Shown piece by piece: positions 5,618 to 63,456 of a stretch of 64,000 nucleotides of DNA. How positions within the stretch are numbered: position 1 is the stretch's first letter; each line of letters begins with the position of its first letter. The DNA comes from Sphaerobacteraceae bacterium (GTDB taxonomy: Bacteria; Chloroflexota; Chloroflexia; Thermomicrobiales; Thermomicrobiaceae), in assembly GCA_007695115.1 (NCBI GenBank), contig REEK01000170.1, positions 62,001 to 126,000 on the forward strand. The letters run 5' to 3'. The translations under genes were made by a program, and so were the position numbers. Under the pieces are notes generated by a model that was not told the DNA's origin, did not search any database, and saw nothing but the letters and a program-made list of their open reading frames with translations.

Positions 5618-7053
5618 CGTCGAACCTCCCTGGTGATCGGGTTGGGCACCGGTCCGGAAGTCCCGTGACCGCCTTGCCCTGACTCCGAGTATCGTTCGTG
5701 CCGGCCATTCTGGCCAGTATGCTCCTTGTATCGTGCATCAGACTCTGAACTACTGTGTCGATGCTCGCGAGCCAGCTGAATCAGCGCCCGCGCGAGTTTG
5801 CCGGGATCGTGTCTCAACGGAAATTCCGGATTCACGACATCTTCCAGCACGACACGTACCGAATCATCGAGCTTCTCCAGCCCGCCGAGTCCTACCTCTC
5901 GCACTGACCATTCCGGCTTGATCAGTGCCTGGGCTGGTTCCAGATTACTGTTGATCAGAACATGGTCCACAACCCCGCGGCCGACATGTTCTTCGAGCGC
6001 AACTACATGGTCAACGGCTTCGAAGTCGTCAGTCTCCCCGCGCTGTGTCGCGACGTTGCAAACGTAAACGGTTGCCGCATTCGAGGCCTTGATTGCTTCA
6101 GGAAGACGATCGACCAGCAAGTTGGGCAATACCGATGTGTACAAGCTGCCGGGGCCAAGAATGATCAGGTCAGCAGACAGAATAGAAAGGAGCGCCGGAT
6201 CATATGGAGACGGATTTGCCGGGTCAAGATAGACAGATGAAATCTTCTGCCGCTCTTCCACGATCGCCGATTCACCACGAATCTCGCGCCCGTCATCCAT
6301 CTTCGCACAGACCGTAATGTTTTCGAGTGAAGAAGGCATAACTTTCCCGCGAACTGCCAGAACGCGAGAGCTCTCGGCAACAGCCTGCTCGAAACTTCCA
6401 GAAACCTGGGTCAGTGCCGTGATGAAGAGGTTCCCGAAGCTATGGCCGTCCAGCGCCGAGCCTTCCTGCTCGAACCGGTACTGGAACAGATCACTCATCA
6501 ACGTTTCAGAGTCTGCCAGCGCCACAATACAGTTTCGGATGTCACCAGGTGGCGGCATATTGAACTCGGTGCGCAGCCGGCCGGAGCTACCACCATCATC
6601 ACCCACGGTGACGACCGCAGTGATATCGATATCATGTGTCTTGAGACCCCGGAGAAGCGTCGATAGCCCCGTCCCACCGCCAATTGCAACCACTCGCAAC
6701 TCGGGCTGACTTGGGCCAAACCGATGCGCCTGGATGATCTCAGCAAGTGGTTGATTCGGTCCAGAACTCGCGTCCCAGAATGGCGCAAGCAGCGAACGGC
6801 TTAGCTGGTAGAAGCCACCAATAATAAACACGATGCCGACGCTGACCATGATCAACTCGCGATATGGGTGCGGAATGAACTGAAGAGTTATCGTTTGTAC
6901 GAAGTTTGTCAGTCCGGCGGGTACGTCGTAGTTCCGATACAGCCAGGCCAGAGCCATGGCAATAGCAAGGCTCGTGAGCACCAGGCCCAGCAACAGGGCA
7001 GCTATCCACCGCTTAACTGCCATACCCGGCCGAAGCCACATGCGAAGATTCAT
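5614..7053 (-). CDS. yvcK: YvcK/CofD-like gluconeogenesis factor with N-terminal membrane domain
   Basis: YvcK proteins bind UDP-sugars and influence carbon flux and cell-wall precursor supply. The first about 90 residues hold two hydrophobic segments (about 14-37 and 66-84). The soluble domain begins with [20 protein letters not shown], followed by [14 protein letters not shown] and [15 protein letters not shown], all typical of the family. Total length is 479 residues against about 320 for the soluble Bacillus type; the extra length is the membrane domain and a polar tail. It overlaps gap by four bases. Its promoter is in the shared region with nusA (see 7089-7118). Confidence 0.93.
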
Positions 7054-7088
7054 GGTTGCCTTTCTTGCGGCTTCGCGACGCAGCCTGA

Positions 7089-15763: not shown

Positions 15764-15836
15764 CGGGGTGTGGCGCAGTAGGTAGCGCGCGGCGTTTGGG
15801 ACGCTGAGGTCGGAGGTTCGAGTCCTCTCACCCCGA
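15764..15836 (+). tRNA. tRNA-Pro (anticodon UGG)
   Basis: A full cloverleaf can be drawn: acceptor CGGGGTG/CACCCCG, D stem GCGC/GCGC, anticodon stem CGGCG/CGCTG with loop TTTGGGA (anticodon TGG), and T stem GGAGG/CCTCT with loop TTCGAGT. Discriminator A. The 3' CCA is not encoded. Confidence 0.96.
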
Positions 15837-15843
15837 CTGAAAT

Positions 15844-15915
15844 GCGGGAGTAACTCAGTGGTAGAGTCCCTGCCTTCCAAGCAGGTTGTCGCCGGTTCGA
15901 ATCCGGTCTCCCGCT
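15844..15915 (+). tRNA. tRNA-Gly (anticodon UCC), integration site of the adjacent island
   Basis: Cloverleaf: acceptor GCGGGAG/CTCCCGC, D stem ACTC/GAGT, anticodon stem CCTGC/GCAGG with loop CTTCCAA (anticodon TCC), and T stem GCCGG/CCGGT with loop TTCGAAT. Discriminator T, no encoded CCA. Its last 34 bases recur at 21710-21743 with two changes. Confidence 0.96.
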
Positions 15916-15952
15916 CCCAATGATTTTCCCCGCCTGGTTGATCCAGGCGGGG
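15882..15952 (+). repeat. left copy of 71-base duplication (attL-like) covering the tRNA-Gly 3' end and terminator
   Basis: It spans the 3' anticodon arm and T arm of tRNA-Gly plus the terminator. The same order and the same 13-base spacing between the tRNA end and the hairpin are found at 21710-21780. The tRNA part is 32/34 identical; the hairpin part is similar but diverged. Confidence 0.75.
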
Positions 15953-15962
15953 ATTTATGTTT
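15928..15962 (+). terminator. intrinsic terminator of the tRNA-Pro/Gly unit
   Basis: Perfect 10-base-pair stem CCCCGCCTGG/CCAGGCGGGG with loop TTGAT, followed by ATTTATGTTT, 13 bases after tRNA-Gly. Confidence 0.85.
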
Positions 15963-16416
15963 CTACGTCTACCTTCCAGAGGGGCCAGCGGAGATCGAAA
16001 CATGGGAGCAGAACGGTAACAGCTGGACGCTTGTCGGGGATTGGCAGCCAGACATGAGTTGGCATGGCCGATATTGACGAAAACAGAAGCTGGTCGTCTG
16101 GGGTGTGACCGCCGCTTTGCTCCTCGATGCGGCTTGGTCAATGGCGACGAAACTTACCGTGGGTTAGTCCCGAACCGTGTCGCTGGCCTAGCGTTTCCAT
16201 ACCGCCCGATAGTCCTGCAAATACGCTTCATCGTTCGTTTTGCTGCGGCGGTGCTTGCGTCCATCTATACTCCGTAGAGACTGCGTTTCACTCGACACTC
16301 ACCAGATGAAGTGAACCCGCGAGGCAGCCAGACCGTCACTCAGGGGACAGGCGCGGCACTTCACATGCAATGAACTTGTTGACAACACATTCCGGCAACC
16401 AGTCTGGAGTCGCGTT
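15963..16416. other. gene-free island edge, possible relic
   Basis: No convincing gene. A short open stretch (about 15961-16077, plus strand) encodes a protein-like sequence with PEGPAEIETWEQNGNSW and SWHGRY before a stop, but has no start of its own; it may be the tail of a lost gene. The rest has stops in all frames. Confidence 0.3.
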
Positions 16417-17346
16417 GTGGGTCCCGAAATCGCCCATAGTCGTACCCGAAAGGCTACTCGTACCAACTTGTTCGAGATACTGGAACGAGCATACCGTCGA
16501 TATCGAGACGTCAACGGTCACATTTACGCTGCCGCTATTTCCTACTTCTCAATGATCTCGCTGTTTCCATGGCTCATCTTCATCGTCACGATGCTTACTT
16601 TACTCGTGCGGGATCCAGTCGTTCAGAGTCAGATCATCACCCAGGTGGTGGACCAGTTCCCACCGGGCGCCCGAATTCGGGGTGAACTTCGCGCATTTGT
16701 CTCGGAAATTACGGTCAGACGCAGTGGTGTCCTTGGTTTAGCGGGGTTGGTCACAACAATCATCGTAGCAAGCGAAGCGTTCCGGGCGCTCCGCTATGCG
16801 CTCAATGCGGTCTTCGGTGTAACCCAAACCCGTTCGGTGCTCCGGGGCCGGGGGATTGACCTTCTTGGAATGCTGGTCGTGCTGCTGTTCGGGACGGTGT
16901 CAGCCGCGATGGCAACGTTGCTTGATCTGGCCTGGATCGAACGCATTACCCCGGCCACTGGTGGCAGCTTGAGCGTGCCATTGCTGATAATCGGTTACAC
17001 ACTGCAATTCCTGCTCACGTTCGTTGCGTTCGTGCTGATGTACCGGGTCGTGCCCGAGATATCCATGGACTGGCGAATCTTGTGGATTCCTGGACTTATA
17101 GCGGCAATTGGATTCGAGGCGGCACGGATCAGTATTTCACTGTTTCTCAACTACTTTGAACGGTTCCAGCAGATCTACGGTGCGCTAAGCGTCACCGTCG
17201 TTGCGCTCGTTTTCGTATTTGTCGTCGCGAACATCGTACTGATCGCTGCCGCTATCGCCTGCGAGGTCGATCTCAGGCAGTATCAACGCGAATCGAGTCA
17301 TGCCGAATCTCGTGAACCAGAAGAACCGGTGTCTGCAAGCGGATAA
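16417..17346 (+). CDS. YihY/BrkB-type inner membrane protein (UPF0761)
   Basis: Integral membrane protein of 309 residues with about six helices. The family signature is visible early: GHIYAAAISYFSMISLFPWLI, then the amphipathic region, and later SVPLLIIGYTLQFLLTFVAFVLMYRVVP and FERFQQIYGALSVTVVALVF. YihY proteins were once called RNase BN but have no proven enzyme activity. It starts with GTG at 16417. It lies alone inside the tRNA-Gly island with opposite-strand relics downstream, so it has no functional context here. Confidence 0.8.
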   Translation: MGPEIAHSRTRKATRTNLFEILERAYRRYRDVNGHIYAAAISYFSMISLFPWLIFIVTMLTLLVRDPVVQSQIITQVVDQFPPGARIRGELRAFVSEITVRRSGVLGLAGLVTTIIVASEAFRALRYALNAVFGVTQTRSVLRGRGIDLLGMLVVLLFGTVSAAMATLLDLAWIERITPATGGSLSVPLLIIGYTLQFLLTFVAFVLMYRVVPEISMDWRILWIPGLIAAIGFEAARISISLFLNYFERFQQIYGALSVTVVALVFVFVVANIVLIAAAIACEVDLRQYQRESSHAESREPEEPVSASG

Positions 17347-17595
17347 TGCAGTCGCAGCAGCGTATTCGTCGAGACCGCGCATTCGCAAGCTGATCCGGCG
17401 CAACTCTTCCAGAATCTGACCACGCGCATCGTTGCATGCGGCATCGTCGATGTCGCCACGCTCGAAATCAGCCTCAAGACGATTCAGTTCTGAAGCGAGT
17501 GCGAGGCGCTCCTTGCCGAGCAGGTCCTCCACCCGACACCCCAGAGAGCGGGCGATCTAATAGAGCGCGCCGGCACCGATAAGTGGAATCGTCAT
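17347..17595 (-). pseudogene. relic of a small anchored coiled-coil protein, interrupted by TAG
   Basis: On the minus strand an ATG at 17595 opens MTIPLIGAGALY, then TAG, then IARSLGCRVEDLLGKERLAL and SELNRLEADFERGDIDDAAC, continuing to about LEELRRI. The helix pattern (basic/acidic repeats with ERGDIDD) resembles the segment after the anchor in CcmI/CcmH-type or zinc-ribbon membrane proteins, but the match is by eye. The frame then runs antisense into the YihY gene. The single TAG at codon 13 suggests a recent nonsense change in an otherwise coherent reading frame. Confidence 0.4.
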
Positions 17596-17852
17596 CTTCT
17601 GACATCGACGACAGGATTGATTGACCCTCTTTAGAAATATGAACTTTGCCGTAAAGCATGAGTTATGACAAAAAATGTGACGACAGGTGCCGATGGCGCT
17701 GCCTTATCCGGACGGGCGGGCCGAATGGGTGTTCGTGTTCCAGGAATGACCCCGGCAATGCGGCGGATGTGGTTCTTCGACACATAACGTGATTACAACC
17801 AACACGACACGTTCCAAGCTCTAATCAGAGTTTCCCTTGCCGTCGTCTTCTT
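17596..17852. other. intergenic, nothing recognised
   Basis: No gene, tRNA or clear repeat seen. It lies between the relic above and the end of the ProV-like gene. No strong terminator for the latter is visible. Confidence 0.4.
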
Positions 17853-19097
17853 CTAGTTCGCTGCGATGCCGGCATCTCCCGCGTGGTCATATTCGACGTC
17901 GTGTATCAGCGTTTCCAGCAGTTTGTTCTTCGTAATCTGGCCAACCAATACGCCGGATTCGTCGACGACTGCGACCGGAAATCGAGTTCCGATCACAAGC
18001 GGGAATACGTCCAGGAGCGCAGCGTCTGGACTGGTGCTAACTGCCCGCTCGACCTGGTCTACCCAGTTACCACCGCCTCCGGTATCGTTCGCCGACTCTC
18101 TCAATGCATGCAGCCAGATCCTGCCGATCAGTTGCTGATCCGCATCGACCACGAAGCTCCCACGCTCATGCTCCTCGATCACCCTTTGAATGGTGAGCCG
18201 AAGGTCTGTCATGTCGGGTTGTATCGTGATCACGTTCGAATCCATGATGGACTTCGCGGTCAGGACCTTGGCGAGCGAGGCACCTTCAACGAAACTCTCG
18301 ATGTACTCATCAGCCGGGTTAGTTACCAGTTCATTCGGCGTCGCGATCTGCACGATCTCGCCCTCGCGCATGATGGCAATGCGGTCCCCAAGAGTGAGCG
18401 CCTCGTCAAGGTCGTGGGTGACCATGATCGTCGTGTGTCCGATCTCCTCCTGCAAACGAGCGAACTCACGCTGCATTCTATTGCGAATCAGTGGATCCAG
18501 GCCTGAGAACGGTTCATCCATCAGCAAGAGTTGAGGGTCATTCGCCAGCGCACGTGCGACCCCAACCCGCTGTTGCATACCCCCGCTCAACGCGTTCGGG
18601 TACTCATCCTCCCACCCCTGGAGTCCCACTTGAGCGATGGCTTCGAAAACTCGCTCACGGCGTTGCTTCCGCGGGATGCCACGGACATACAGGCCAAACT
18701 CAACGTTTTCCATTACGGTTCTATGCGGTTGAAGTCCGTAGCGCTGGAAGACCATTGCCGTCTCACGCGACCGCAGTTGTCGAACCTCCTTGTCGCTCAG
18801 CTTCATAATATCCCGACCGTTGATCAGGACCTCACCCGTGACAGGTTCGATGAGTCGAATAATCGAGCGGAGCAGCGTCGACTTCCCGCAACCGGAGAGT
18901 CCCATAATGATGAAGAACTCACCTTGATGAACGACGAAAGAAGCGTCTCGCACGGCGACAAACGCCCCGGTTTGTCGCTGTATCTCGTCGCGTGAAATTC
19001 CTTGAGCGACCATCTCCAAAGCGTTTTGTTGGTTGCGGCGTCCACCGAACAGTTGAGAAACGTTCCGTACATCGAGCACAATATTCTGATTATTCAT
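17853..19097 (-). CDS. proV: glycine betaine/proline-type ABC transporter ATPase (ProV/OpuAA-like)
   Basis: ATPase subunit of osmoprotectant importers. The 414-residue protein begins with the QAT-family N-terminus (ALEMVAQGISRDEIQRQTG). It has Walker A GLSGCGKST, the Q-loop FQRYGLQPHRTV, signature LSGGMQQRVG, Walker B LLLMDEPFSGLD and H-loop MVTHDLDEAL. Two CBS-like domains (about 275-400) end the protein, as in ProV, where they sense ionic strength. Normally proW and proX follow; here downstream is only relic DNA. The nucleotide-binding part looks intact, so either it serves a distant permease or it is an orphan in a decaying element. Confidence 0.88.
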   Translation of the reverse strand: MNNQNIVLDVRNVSQLFGGRRNQQNALEMVAQGISRDEIQRQTGAFVAVRDASFVVHQGEFFIIMGLSGCGKSTLLRSIIRLIEPVTGEVLINGRDIMKLSDKEVRQLRSRETAMVFQRYGLQPHRTVMENVEFGLYVRGIPRKQRRERVFEAIAQVGLQGWEDEYPNALSGGMQQRVGVARALANDPQLLLMDEPFSGLDPLIRNRMQREFARLQEEIGHTTIMVTHDLDEALTLGDRIAIMREGEIVQIATPNELVTNPADEYIESFVEGASLAKVLTAKSIMDSNVITIQPDMTDLRLTIQRVIEEHERGSFVVDADQQLIGRIWLHALRESANDTGGGGNWVDQVERAVSTSPDAALLDVFPLVIGTRFPVAVVDESGVLVGQITKNKLLETLIHDVEYDHAGDAGIAAN

Positions 19098-19767
19098 GAC
19101 GCGATCCTCTTCAGGCTCTCGGGTTAAAGCAGTCGAACAATAATTGTAAGTTCACGTATGGCACTTGTTTGCGTTTTGCCATTCACCTGCATGATACGAA
19201 CATTCTTGTCGCAGAACAGCCAATTCGAACCGCGTGATGCAACAAGGACGTGGCACTTGTGTACGGTTACAGCTGTGCTTCAGTGCAACAAACATCAAAA
19301 GGCACAGTTACTCTATAAGCAAAGAATGATTGAAGCAGAGACGCCGTCGCGGAGCGTGGTTGATCTGCGCCGGCGAGCAGCTCGCGGTGCTCAGCGTAGC
19401 CACCGTGTAGACATATTCTGGGATGGAGAACTATGCCTCGTCGGGTTGAGACGATGGGAGCGTAACTCTGCGATCTCTAAATTCGAAGAACAGCAAGAGT
19501 TCGCCCGAAATGACCGAGATATTCCCTCGGTTCAATTCGTCGATGACGATGACGGATCACCCTGCCTCAACCCTGCGCTGACGACAGCGCGTGATGGGTC
19601 ACATTGAAATCTCCGCAAACTCGGAAGACCTGGTTCATGGGCGCACACGGTAGCAGCCACAAGGTCGCGTATAACCCGATGATGTTTGCGTGGTATTGAC
19701 CTTGCGTCGAGGTGGAGTACGCAGTAACGCGTTCTAATCGAGCAACCAAGAAAGGATTGAGTGAACA
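19098..19767. other. 670-base stretch without a convincing gene
   Basis: A plus-strand open frame (19158-19607, 149 codons) has no recognisable motif, many Arg/Cys/Trp residues and no ribosome site, so I do not call it. The stretch holds the promoter regions of the two flanking divergent genes. No clean -10/-35 pair was found. Confidence 0.35.
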
Positions 19768-20097
19768 ATGAGTTGGACACCACAGCAACATGAAGACTAC
19801 GATGCGCTGAAAGGCTACGACGTCTACAGCAGCGACAACGAGAAGATTGGCACTGTCCGTGAGATCTTTCATCCGCAGGAAGATATAACTACTGCGGTAG
19901 GGCGTCACTACTTCCGGGTCGAACCAGGTACGCTTGAAGGATTGTTCAAAGATGTCGATGAAGTCTTTGTGCCGGAAGGGCTCGTACAGCGGGTCGATCC
20001 AGAAAACGAGAGCGTAATTCTCGAGGTGCCAAAGAGCCAGTTGAACGAGCACGAGTTTGGCCGTCCAGCCGATATCGACTCGTTCCGGAGCAGCTAA
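19768..20097 (+). CDS. PRC-barrel/DUF2171-like small protein
   Basis: 109 residues, soluble and acidic, with the beta-barrel start ALKGYDVYSSDNEKIGTVREI and further strand pairs (HYFRVEPG, EVFVPEGLVQRVDPENESV). PRC-barrel-like domains occur in RNA-processing, photosynthetic and general stress proteins; no specific role can be given. The ATG at 19768 follows GAAAGGATTGAG. It carries its own terminator. It is one of the few intact genes of the tRNA-Gly island. Confidence 0.65.
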   Translation: MSWTPQQHEDYDALKGYDVYSSDNEKIGTVREIFHPQEDITTAVGRHYFRVEPGTLEGLFKDVDEVFVPEGLVQRVDPENESVILEVPKSQLNEHEFGRPADIDSFRSS

Positions 20098-20131
20098 CGT
20101 CGATACAGAACAAAGAGTTACGACAACGATG

Positions 20132-20164
20132 CGGGCTGAGGGTTAATCCCCCGGCCCGTTGTTC
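20132..20164 (+). terminator. terminator of the PRC-barrel gene
   Basis: Stem CGGGCTGAGGG/CCCCCGGCCCG, with one wobble and one mismatch, followed by TTGTTC, 34 bases after the stop. Confidence 0.6.
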
Positions 20165-20369
20165 ATTCGCGAAGGAACCGTGATCCAATGAAACTCGGCA
20201 ACTGATGTTGACTTCCGCGGAGATAACGGCCATATGGCGGCACCACCTCGACCTCGATTCTCCCCAGTTTCCCTCGTCCGAGCGCGTGGATGGGACAGAG
20301 TTGTCCTCCCCGCAGATTAACCCAACAACCTTCGCCTTTTACTAAGTACTGGTAGCGATGAAAACGAAG

Positions 20370-20555
20370 CTAGCTTGTTCTGGCCGCTGAAGGATCATGT
20401 CGTGGCGCGCTGACCTCGACCAGTGGCAGATGGTCGACAAATCTCTCCAAGTCCTCAGCCCCTCGGTCGAAATACTCCTCAGCTTCGAGGAACAGATCCT
20501 GGTCGTCGGTTTCTATCGCCTAGTTCATCAGTTCGATGCCGTCGGGCAGGTGCAT
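20370..20555 (-). pseudogene. gene relic with internal TAG
   Basis: On the minus strand the frame reads MHLPDGIELMN, TAG, then AIETDDQDLFLEAEEYFDRG and AEDLERFVDHLPLVEV before a second TAG at 20370. The acidic, amphipathic sequence is protein-like over 60 codons. Restoring the first TAG to CAG (Gln) would join the halves by one C-to-T change. Upstream the same frame meets TAA near 20620 with no start. I do not recognise the family. Confidence 0.35.
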
Positions 20556-21119
20556 CAAGGCAGCGACAAGGGACTGGTGGGCGAATCGACGGGCCGATAG
20601 TGGCTGACTGATCGCTCGTTACTTGACAAGGTTGGGGGGTAACTGGGGGTCAAGTTTCAGGTGCCTGTCCACCAAGCCCTGCGCTGTCGGCGCCGTAATC
20701 GTAATCTCTTACCCCACCGAGACGATAGATTCAGCTCGACGATCAGTTCGCTCAATACTCGGCGGTCAGCGAACTGAATGCGATAGGGAGAAAACACGCT
20801 GCTACAAGGTAGGCAGCCCGCGCGGGAAGGGATCGAATCGACGGCTTAATCGTCTGAAACTAGCTATATGGCCAAGTCGTTCGGTACATAGTAGAATCCA
20901 TTCAACGAATGTGTGAACCATGTCGGTAGGCAATGTCTAGCAAGCATCAAAACCTATCAGCTCAACTTCCCACAGAATTTTCTAGAGTGCGAGCTCTAGC
21001 CGACGGATTCACCCCTTTCCGACTGGTGAGGGCGTGAAGAACCCCTGTTTCGTCAACTCTGAAAAGGCTCGCCATCCATTGGGGATGGTTAGTGCCGATG
21101 ACTCTAGCGAGGAATACGC
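20556..21119. other. degraded intergenic DNA of the island
   Basis: Stops in all frames and no intact gene. It contains the upstream remains of the relic ending at 20370 and the leader of the small membrane genes at 21120. Confidence 0.35.
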
Positions 21120-21287
21120 ATGAAATTGAATGACCTGCCACTCGCCCTGTTCCTGGTTGCCGCATTCATATCCTTCGTCTTTTCCGTGACGCTCTGGTTT
21201 TTCGTTGACAAGGATACCGGCCTCTTTGTTGGTCTCTGGGTTCCGTCGATTCTTGCATTGGCAGCAGCGATTCGGAGGCCACGATGA
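21120..21287 (+). CDS. small two-helix membrane protein, unknown function
   Basis: 55 residues, MKLNDLPLALFLVAAFISFV then FSVTLWFFVDKDTGLFVG and LWVPSILALAAAIRRPR. That gives two hydrophobic segments (about 8-28 and 34-50) joined by VDKD. AGGAA lies five bases before the ATG. Its TGA overlaps the ATG of the next tiny gene (ATGA), so both are probably translated together. Such pairs can be accessory subunits of transporters, but no partner is adjacent. Confidence 0.6.
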   Translation: MKLNDLPLALFLVAAFISFVFSVTLWFFVDKDTGLFVGLWVPSILALAAAIRRPR

Positions 21288-21400
21288 TCCTCGAAGTCTT
21301 CGTGGCACTTACTGGCATTATTGTATTCACAATTGTGTTGATCGCCGGATATCTCACCCTCTCTGCCTCCGAAGAGGGGGACGACGGCAACCGCCGCTAG
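21284..21400 (+). CDS. single-helix mini-protein coupled to the preceding gene
   Basis: 38 residues: MILEVFVALTGIIVFTIVLI, then AGYLTLSASEEGDDGNRR. One membrane helix with an acidic cytoplasmic-type tail. A perfect GGAGG lies five bases before the ATG, inside the end of the previous gene, which strongly supports translation. The layout (helix plus short charged tail) recalls small subunits of secondary transporters; that likeness is only in shape. Confidence 0.6.
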   Translation: MILEVFVALTGIIVFTIVLIAGYLTLSASEEGDDGNRR

Positions 21401-21975
21401 AAGCTTGCGCCAGATAGATAGAGGCCAGCACGATCGCGAACACATCTGGTCTCAGCGAAGCGATCACTAAACAGGGGGAATGCAGAGCTGCGAACAGGCC
21501 CCCCTAGCCTGATGTTAACTAATAGCCTGCAACGATGCCCATTCTGCTGACGTTGCAATCGAAATTAGATATAGCAACGCTACTTTCAACCTCTATGATC
21601 CCGTCACCGCGTTGACGCCGCACCCCTGCCACACCATATGCTCCGAACCCGCAAGCCCACAGAGATATCCCTGAGGATCTGCAATCGTCGCCTTCGTTCG
21701 CGAACATGTCAGGTTGTCGCCGGTTCGAATTCTGTCTCCCGCTCTTAGAGAATATCCCCGTCTGGTGATTCCGGGTGGGGATGTCTTTGTGCCTTGGCGT
21801 TGCTTTTCTGGCTCGATCATGAGGTTGAGCGATTATCCAGTGAGACTAGCGCTCCTGTAGCGCGATATGACGATCAGAGCCTCACACTGGCATTCGTATT
21901 GCGCCCAGGGCTTCCATTCCGGTCCGAAGCCGGACGTTCGCATGCACCAGTGAATACTGACAAGGAGGCTACCTG
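21401..21975. other. island right edge and junction
   Basis: No gene called. It contains the truncated tRNA-Gly copy and terminator (21710-21780), then the leader of the SRPBCC gene with its AGGAGG site. Confidence 0.5.
21710..21780 (+). repeat. right copy of the duplication (attR-like): tRNA-Gly 3' fragment and terminator
   Basis: 21710-21743 matches 32 of 34 bases of the tRNA-Gly 3' end; both changes fall in the 3' side of the T stem. No 5' tRNA half precedes it. After the same 13-base gap comes a hairpin, CCCCGTCTGG/CCGGGTGGGG with loop TGATT, the counterpart of 15928-15952; it pairs completely if three G-U pairs are allowed. Confidence 0.75.
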
Positions 21976-22413
21976 TTGCGGATTGAAGAGAGCGTAGAGA
22001 TTTCGCTGCCACCGGTAAGGGTTTACGAATTCATCGCAGACGTCAACAATCTCACCCGTTGCTCGGATGTGATAACCGAAGTCCACAACGCGCCAGATCG
22101 TGCTGTACAGGTCGGCGACACCTATACGACGAAAGCAACAGTGATGGGGCGCACCGTAACGACGGCTCATCGCGTTGTCACCGCTGATCCCCCAAACCGA
22201 TTGGAGATGGATGGCAAGAACGGCACACTAAACCTGAAGGTTGTTATTGTGTTCGAGCCTTCGGACAGTGGAACGCGCGTCACGCAGATCGGTGAAGGTG
22301 AACTTGGTGGGGCGTTGCGATTCGTTCGACCTGTGGTTGAGCGGACCGTGCGGCAACAAGTTCGCGGTGATCTCGCAAACCTGAAACGCATTCTTGAAGA
22401 GCATAGTTCGTAG
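21976..22413 (+). CDS. SRPBCC (START/polyketide cyclase-like) family protein
   Basis: 145 residues with the SRPBCC pattern: RIEESVEISLPPVRVYEFIA at the N-terminus, then VQVGDTYTTKATVMGR, PPNRLEMDGK, FEPSDSGTRVTQIGEGEL and a long C-terminal helix (ERTVRQQVRGDLANLKRILE). The fold forms a hydrophobic ligand cavity; ligand unknown. It starts with TTG at 21976, seven bases after AGGAGG. First apparently native gene right of the island. Confidence 0.75.
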   Translation: MRIEESVEISLPPVRVYEFIADVNNLTRCSDVITEVHNAPDRAVQVGDTYTTKATVMGRTVTTAHRVVTADPPNRLEMDGKNGTLNLKVVIVFEPSDSGTRVTQIGEGELGGALRFVRPVVERTVRQQVRGDLANLKRILEEHSS

Positions 22414-61485: not shown

Positions 61486-63456
61486 CTACTCTTCGGTGCC
61501 CTCGTACTGCTTCTTGATGTCCTCGAGCACTGAAGGATCAGTCAGTGTCGTGGTATCCCCGACAACACGTCCTTCGGCAACATCCCGGAGCAGACGTCGC
61601 ATGATCTTGGCGCTTCTCGTCTTGGGAAGCTCAGCAGTGAAGTAGATGCGATCCGGTCGGGCAATCGGGCCGATCTTGTCGGCAACGTGCTGCCGCAACT
61701 CTTCGGCGAGATCCCAGGTTGCTTCAACGTTTCCTCGCGGGGTCACGAACGCAGCGACAGCCTGCCCCTTGAGGTCGTGGGAAACACCGATAACGGCAGC
61801 CTCCGCAACCGATGGGTGGCTTACCAGGGCGCTCTCCAGCTCCATCGTGCCGAGCCGGTGTCCAGCGATGTTCAGCACATCGTCCACGCGGCCCATGAGC
61901 CAGTAGTAGCCGTCTTCATCTCGCCGTGCGCCGTCGCCGGTGAAATAGACATCCGGTGTGAACTTGCTGAAATACTGTTCCACGTAGCGATCGTCATCTC
62001 CCCAGACGGTTCGGGAAATCGCAGGCCAGGGTTTGCGAATAATCAGAAACCCGCCCTGCCCAAGCGGTACCGATTCACCTTGCGCGTCAACGACATCTGG
62101 TTCGATACCCGGGAACGGATGAGACGCTGATCCAGGTTTCATGGTCGTAATACCGGGCAACCCGCCGATCATGACGGCACCGGTCTCCGTCTGCCACCAC
62201 GTATCGACCACGGGTGTCTCGTTGCGTCCGATATGCTCTCGATACCAGATCCAGGCTTCCGGGTTGATCGGTTCTCCAACGGTGCCTAGCAGACGGATCG
62301 AGGAGAGATCATGCCGCTCGACGTGTTCGGCACCCCATCGCATGAAGCCACGGATTGCCGTCGGTGCCGAGTAGAGTACTGTTACAGCCCGACGCTCCAC
62401 GATATCCCAGAAACGGTCTTTGTCGGGGTAATCCGGGGCACCCTCGTACATGACTGTGGTGGCACCGTTGGCCAGTGGCCCGTAGACGATATAGCTGTGG
62501 CCAGTAACCCAGCCGATGTCGGCGGTACACCAGTAGATATCTTCGTCCTTGAGATCGAGTACCCACTTCGACGTCAGATAGGCTCCCACCAGATAGCCTC
62601 CAGTGGTGTGCAGCAGTCCCTTCGGCTTCCCGGTCGTGCCGGACGTATATAGGATATAGAGCGGATGCTCGGAATCGAGCTGCTCCGGCTCGCAGTACCC
62701 GCCGTTGCCGGCCTGAATCGCATCGTGCCACCAGACGTCCCGGCCAGTTCGCATACGTACTGGATGAACGTGGCGACCCAGTCGCTGAACAACGACCATC
62801 TTTTCAACGTTGGGAGTGTTCTCAACTGCACGATCGGCGTTATCTTTCAGCGGGACCACTGAGCCGCGCCGGTATCCACCATCGGAGGTGACCACGACCT
62901 TGGCACCGCAATCGTTGATCCGGTCAGCCAGTGAATCCGGGCTGAACCCGCCGAAAACTACCGAATGTGGCGCGCCGATTCGGGCGCACGCCAGCATCGT
63001 GATCGGGAGCTCGGGAATCATTGGGAGATAGATCGCCACCCGGTCGCCTTTTTCGACTCCGAGTCGCTTGAGCATGTTCGCGGCCTGATTGACTTCGCGA
63101 TAGAGATCCTGGTAGGTGAGGATGCGCTCATCGCCCGGTTCACCCTCCCAGATGATCGCGGCCTTGGTTCGGCGCCAGCCCTTGATATGTCGATCAACAC
63201 AGTTGTAGGAGACGTTCAGCTTGCCGCCATCGAACCACTTGACCCACGGCGGGTTCCAGTCCATCACCGTGTTCCACTTCTCGTACCAGTCAAGTTCCCC
63301 GGCTATTTCCGCCCAGAATCCCTCGGGATCCTCACTGGCGCGCCGGTAAACATCGGGATCATTAATATTGGCGGCGCTGGTGAATGACGCGGATGGCTCA
63401 TATGTTCGTGTCTCATTGAGCAATCCTTCGATCGTTCCACCCTGTTCTTCTGACAT
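61486..63456 (-). CDS. acsA: acetyl-CoA synthetase (AMP-forming)
   Basis: Activates acetate to acetyl-CoA through acetyl-AMP. The 656-residue protein has the P-loop-like [57 protein letters not shown] and the catalytic-Lys region [16 protein letters not shown]. In the last, Ala replaces the usual Gly of PKTRSGK, the motif recognised by lysine acetyltransferases. Length and N-terminus are typical. Convergent with the iron-type ABC genes; the DUF983 gene lies 143 bases upstream. Confidence 0.95.

Follow-up and report, generated by a model that had tools for sequence, protein, structure and literature searches.

The DNA at 15918 to 21709 is probably the remainder of an old insertion, made by site-specific recombination in the 3' part of a tRNA-Gly(UCC) gene. 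It resembles a cis-mobilizable element (CIME). The window, meaning the whole 64,000-nucleotide stretch analyzed, is positions 62001 to 126000 of contig C64 (157 kb) from genome G000. The host genome is a MAG of the Thermomicrobiaceae and lies close to MAGs from Cock Soda Lake, the source of MAGs with the name prefix CSSed (PMC6704655). We compared it with three Thermomicrobiaceae MAGs of the same genus: CSSed162cmB_603 (G002), CSSed162cmA_58 (G003), and CSSed165cm_354 (G001). The tyrS product was 99% identical in amino acids to that of the window in G002 and 83% in G001. All sequences compared are from MAGs. The G002 assembly is 87% complete, so sequence missing from it is not proven absent.

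The tRNA-Gly(UCC) gene and its displaced 3' end

The window encodes a tRNA-Pro at 15764 to 15837 and, beside it, an intact tRNA-Gly(UCC) at 15844 to 15917 on the forward strand (ARAGORN, Rfam). The latter lies on the left, reconstituted side of a putative att pair. A repeat search of the window retrieved a 73-nt repeat with 81% identity between 15882 to 15954 and 21710 to 21782, both on the forward strand. It consists of the last 36 bases of tRNA-Gly(UCC) (nucleotides 39 to 74) and the terminator. The left copy is attL-like and the right copy attR-like. The right copy matches 33 of the 36 bases of the tRNA end, and the site ranked third in the window matches 23 (ungapped, both strands). It was found with an E value of 9e-13 in a whole-genome BLAST search. 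Neither ARAGORN nor Rfam predicted a tRNA at 21710. A 5' half was sought in the 60 bases upstream of the right copy, where 14 of 38 positions were identical versus a shuffled mean of 15.0. Because most of the 3' part survives with no 5' half above chance, the right copy is best read as a displaced 3' fragment and not as a decayed full gene. The initial annotation had described just such a recurrence, and it holds.

The duplication includes the terminator, as had also been proposed. The hairpin CCCCGCCTGG-TTGAT-CCAGGCGGGG lies at 15928 to 15952 (forward strand) in the left copy, and a terminator-like hairpin lies at 21756 to 21780 in the right copy. The right copy of G002 is orthologous and has the same stem-loop; its terminator stem is identical to that of the left copy in the window. 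The boundary and the bases upstream of the right copy are also the same in G002.

G000 and G002 are identical in the right copy through the T-loop. They are then 71 to 78% identical for about 150 bp, and more than 90% identical again beyond. This block of excess divergence, at 21731 to 21885, starts just past the T-loop GGTTCGAAT and compares with about 88% identity in intergenic DNA. It is possibly a further recombination scar.

Contig C64 contained no match to PF00589. The claim that no integrase is left was thus confirmed for a tyrosine integrase detectable with Pfam. No PF00239 match was found on the contig, and a serine recombinase was rejected as the agent, with none near the locus. Some of the ORFs of the interval were scanned, and none of these was recognized as an integrase, excisionase, relaxase, or phage gene. 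The named ORFs of the interval had no Pfam or NCBIfam hit to transfer families.

Modules and selection in the interval

The G002 contig with tyrS, tRNA-Pro, and tRNA-Gly matches the window at 97% identity as far as 15917 and is unrelated beyond. Similarity to G002 ends at exactly this position and is back at about 17806. Beyond the terminator, no counterpart of 15918 to 17800 was found in the 87% complete G002 assembly. The 5.8-kb interval is therefore not one unit. It is a mosaic that combines two modules or more, 1.9 kb on the left and 3.9 kb on the right.

The left module (15918 to 17805) was seen in one assembly only. It encodes a YihY/BrkB family inner-membrane protein at 16417 to 17346 on the forward strand (Pfam PF03631; TIGR00765 above the cutoff). 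A homologue in G001 has 69% amino acid identity and lies at a different locus.

The right module (17806 to 21709) is 94% identical in DNA to the sister genome G002. It encodes a ProV-type glycine betaine/proline ABC ATPase with a CBS domain at 17853 to 19097 on the reverse strand (TIGR01186 above the cutoff). This proV is an orphan with no proWX adjoining. It also encodes a PRC-barrel protein at 19768 to 20097 (forward; PF05239), a hydrophobic mini-protein of 55 amino acids at 21120 to 21287 (forward), and a mini-protein of 38 amino acids at 21284 to 21400 (forward). The start of the last overlaps the stop of the 55-amino-acid ORF (ATGA). Directly right of the island is a gene for an SRPBCC protein at 21976 to 22413 (forward; PF10604). 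It was found at close identity in G000 and G002 only, and neither G001 nor G003 has a close homologue. The order ProV, PRC, two mini-proteins, right copy, SRPBCC, ABM, and DUF4012 is conserved in G002, with a DNA identity of 93 to 94%.

The interval had been called gene-poor. It does contain long noncoding stretches, but BrkB/YihY, ProV, PRC, and the two small overlapping ORFs are intact. Its G+C content is 0.51 to 0.58 versus 0.54 to 0.60 in the flanks, which is slightly lower but not diagnostic. In G002 the ORF at 19158 to 19607 has a frameshift and an identity of about 88%, and for this reason it is probably noncoding.

The cargo shared by G000 and G002 (ProV, PRC, and the mini-proteins) is maintained under purifying selection, with dN/dS values of 0 to 0.13 for this pair. 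The values were 0.11 for ProV and 0.13 for PRC; SRPBCC had 0.08. Both mini-proteins have 100% amino acid identity in G002, with three synonymous changes in the longer and two in the shorter, so that the signal from each alone is weak. BrkB lies outside this test, with no G002 copy found. The description of the cargo as relics being eroded is contradicted by these ratios, and decay of this shared cargo was rejected.

Synonymous divergence from G002 was also compared across 12548 to 37264. It is lowest in the island, with 0.07 to 0.09 in ProV and the mini-proteins. It is 0.2 to 0.44 some 10 to 20 kb to the right and 0.36 on the left. The pattern looks as if homologous recombination had exchanged the region.

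The same tRNA in relatives

The DNA directly after tRNA-Gly is different in each of G000, G001, G002, and G003, and several contigs from the genus end at this tRNA. G001 contains a 0.93-kb insert after tRNA-Gly with an intact SnoaL-family ORF. The insert is flanked by a perfect 53-bp repeat that runs from tRNA nucleotide 54 to the terminator, and only a 3' fragment is repeated. Past this repeat lies a gene that is absent from G000 and G002. The G001 insert is independent of the insertion in the window. In G003 we read the sequence downstream of tRNA-Gly as transposase-like debris. An empty site, with tRNA-Gly joined to DNA from 21781, was found in none of the available relatives; G001 and G003 contain other DNA there, and the G002 contigs break. 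A search by synteny of SRPBCC, DUF4012, and the M81 peptidase also found no empty site. In G001 the contig that contains the ABM-DUF4012 pair has no tRNA close to it. The distance from M81 to tRNA-Gly is 1.3 to 6 kb in G006, G028, and G011 and 19.8 kb in the window.

An orthologue of ProV is encoded in G001 (80% amino acid identity) and G003 (68%). It adjoins a tRNA-Cys-like sequence and an ade-like gene, which we read as tRNA-Cys and ade. Another gene, by our reading a uracil-DNA glycosylase, occupies the ProV/tRNA-Cys place in G002. Because the orthologue sits beside the tRNA-Cys-like sequence, the cargo appears to be at least partly genus DNA adjoining different tRNA genes and not distant foreign DNA. 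With this orthologue-grade relative kept by G001 and G003, proV may mark a part of the cargo that is moved genus DNA.

Elements with integrases use the same tRNA elsewhere in the order. G057 contains a PF00589 integrase gene directly after tRNA-Gly(UCC), and G038 contains an intact integrase gene after the 5' half of tRNA-Gly. Both lie beside the tRNA-Pro/tRNA-Gly unit. Two contigs were retrieved from G048. One contains an intact tRNA-Gly and 558 bp; the other contains foreign DNA, CTTCCAAG and the 3' half, and then the same 558 bp at 95% identity. They diverge at the anticodon loop. This pair has the appearance of an empty site together with a right junction, here probably from mixed strains, a reading that replaced that of a long repeat with a terminator. 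The empty and occupied pair shows that tRNA-Gly(UCC) is an insertion target in the order. Isolated 3' halves of tRNA-Gly were found in G036, G056, G057, G038, and one marine Chloroflexi MAG.

The tRNA-Gly(UCC) of G038 is split at the 7-nt anticodon loop. The 5' half with a XerD-like integrase and the 3' half are on separate contigs (L134, G038:C36, 1820 to 1985 and 632 to 1633; L133, G038:C54, 1710 to 1785 and 1902 to 1946). In this genome, which is 82% complete, a single tRNA-Gly(UCC) was found, a divergent full-length gene located 116 bp ahead of the 3' half. It looks as though the element had brought a replacement tRNA with it. Besides one full tRNA-Gly(UCC) gene, the marine Chloroflexi MAG (L155, L171, L178) contains two 3' halves on their own, each starting at CTTCCAAG, from which multiple insertions at the same tRNA are probable.

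Explanations and known elements

Insertion at the 3' end of the tRNA, as first proposed, is the best explanation given the hotspot, the G001 insert, and the integrases and junction pair of the order. The parts of that proposal that describe a single unit and its decay do not stand. An element whose attP held a tRNA 3' end and terminator would have recombined with the chromosomal tRNA-Gly. The tRNA would have been rebuilt on the left with the 3' end of the element, and the original 3' end and terminator of the host displaced to 21710 to 21782. The integrase may have been provided in trans or lost later; presumably it was a tyrosine integrase. Because the repeat begins at nucleotide 39 in the window and 54 in G001, the crossover would lie 3' of the anticodon loop, in the T-loop/acceptor-junction class. 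Islander separates this class from anticodon-loop crossovers (PMC4383910). The order-level elements of G038, G048, and G057 have the same tRNA-Gly(UCC) target beside tRNA-Pro, but their junctions start at the 7-nt anticodon loop CTTCCAA and the window repeat starts further 3', at nucleotide 39. We infer from this that the genus insertions were made by another class of integrase. The site would have been used more than once, with different histories for the BrkB part (1.9 kb) and the ProV-PRC-mini-protein part (3.9 kb). Since the cargo that is left is fixed and under selection, the interval would now behave as CIME-like resident DNA with att-like borders; it would not be an element in active decay.

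RecA-type (Campbell) integration of a circle with a tRNA-Gly 3' fragment and terminator would need no site-specific integrase, and none is present. The repeat takes in the terminator in both genus-level cases, which makes it longer than a minimal att core. However, the 53 to 73 bp shared is short for homologous recombination, and the independent G001 insertion at the same tRNA 3' part and the order-level integrase elements favor site-specific recombination. We consider this route unlikely. It is slightly more doubtful that the genus site gathers very small integrase-less cassettes moved in trans, as a tRNA-targeted single-gene cassette system. The cassettes would be the 0.93-kb, one-ORF insert of G001 and the 1.9- and 3.9-kb modules of the window, each with its own tRNA 3' end and terminator.

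An assembly artifact or strain mixture could have joined unrelated DNA at the tRNA. The data come from MAGs, several contigs of the genus are interrupted at this tRNA, and the BrkB module has no support from G002. The contig is nevertheless 157 kb long, and an independent assembly contains the right half as well, which makes an artifact very unlikely. Least probable is a gene duplication. The right copy would then be the decayed remnant of a second, full tRNA-Gly gene, and the interval would be ordinary DNA inherited vertically. Copies of tRNA genes and terminators do duplicate, and the same genome has another tRNA-Gly-like gene at C83 (85% match). Against this stand the lack of a 5' half, the unchanged boundary in G002, and the G001 case, which likewise has a 3' fragment only.

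Read as a site-specific insertion, the interval is of a known kind: a tDNA island without an integrase, CIME-like, and with a corrected history. It resembles the tDNA islands of Islander (PMC4383910) in its intact tRNA, its displaced 3' fragment in the same orientation downstream and without a 5' half, and an island of more than 2 kb between them. Unlike them, it contains no integrase gene and does not pass the Islander integrase filter. It resembles a CIME (PMC5704250, after Pavlovic et al. 2004) in that attL/attR-like ends are kept, no integration genes are recognized, and the site is repeatedly used; transfer genes were not recognized among the named ORFs of the interval. Integration genes are absent from the contig, and their prior presence is presumed. 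In contrast to a CIME, the cargo is housekeeping-like. A CIME would derive from a parent ICE or IME and undergo accretion and mobilization in cis by a related element; no related intact element was found in the genus. The interval adds a tRNA-Gly insertion hotspot in the Chloroflexota (Thermomicrobiaceae). The integrase-less island described here has been retained under selection and is not decaying. Island finders based on integrases are blind to islands of this type.

Phage contigs that share the tRNA-Gly end were set aside, as most of these contain tRNA genes in full, within phage tRNA arrays. One exception is viral contig L182 (IMGVR_UViG_3300037160_000193). At 7044 to 7073 it contains the 3' half of a tRNA-Gly(CCC)-like sequence with no 5' half, which is a candidate att site.
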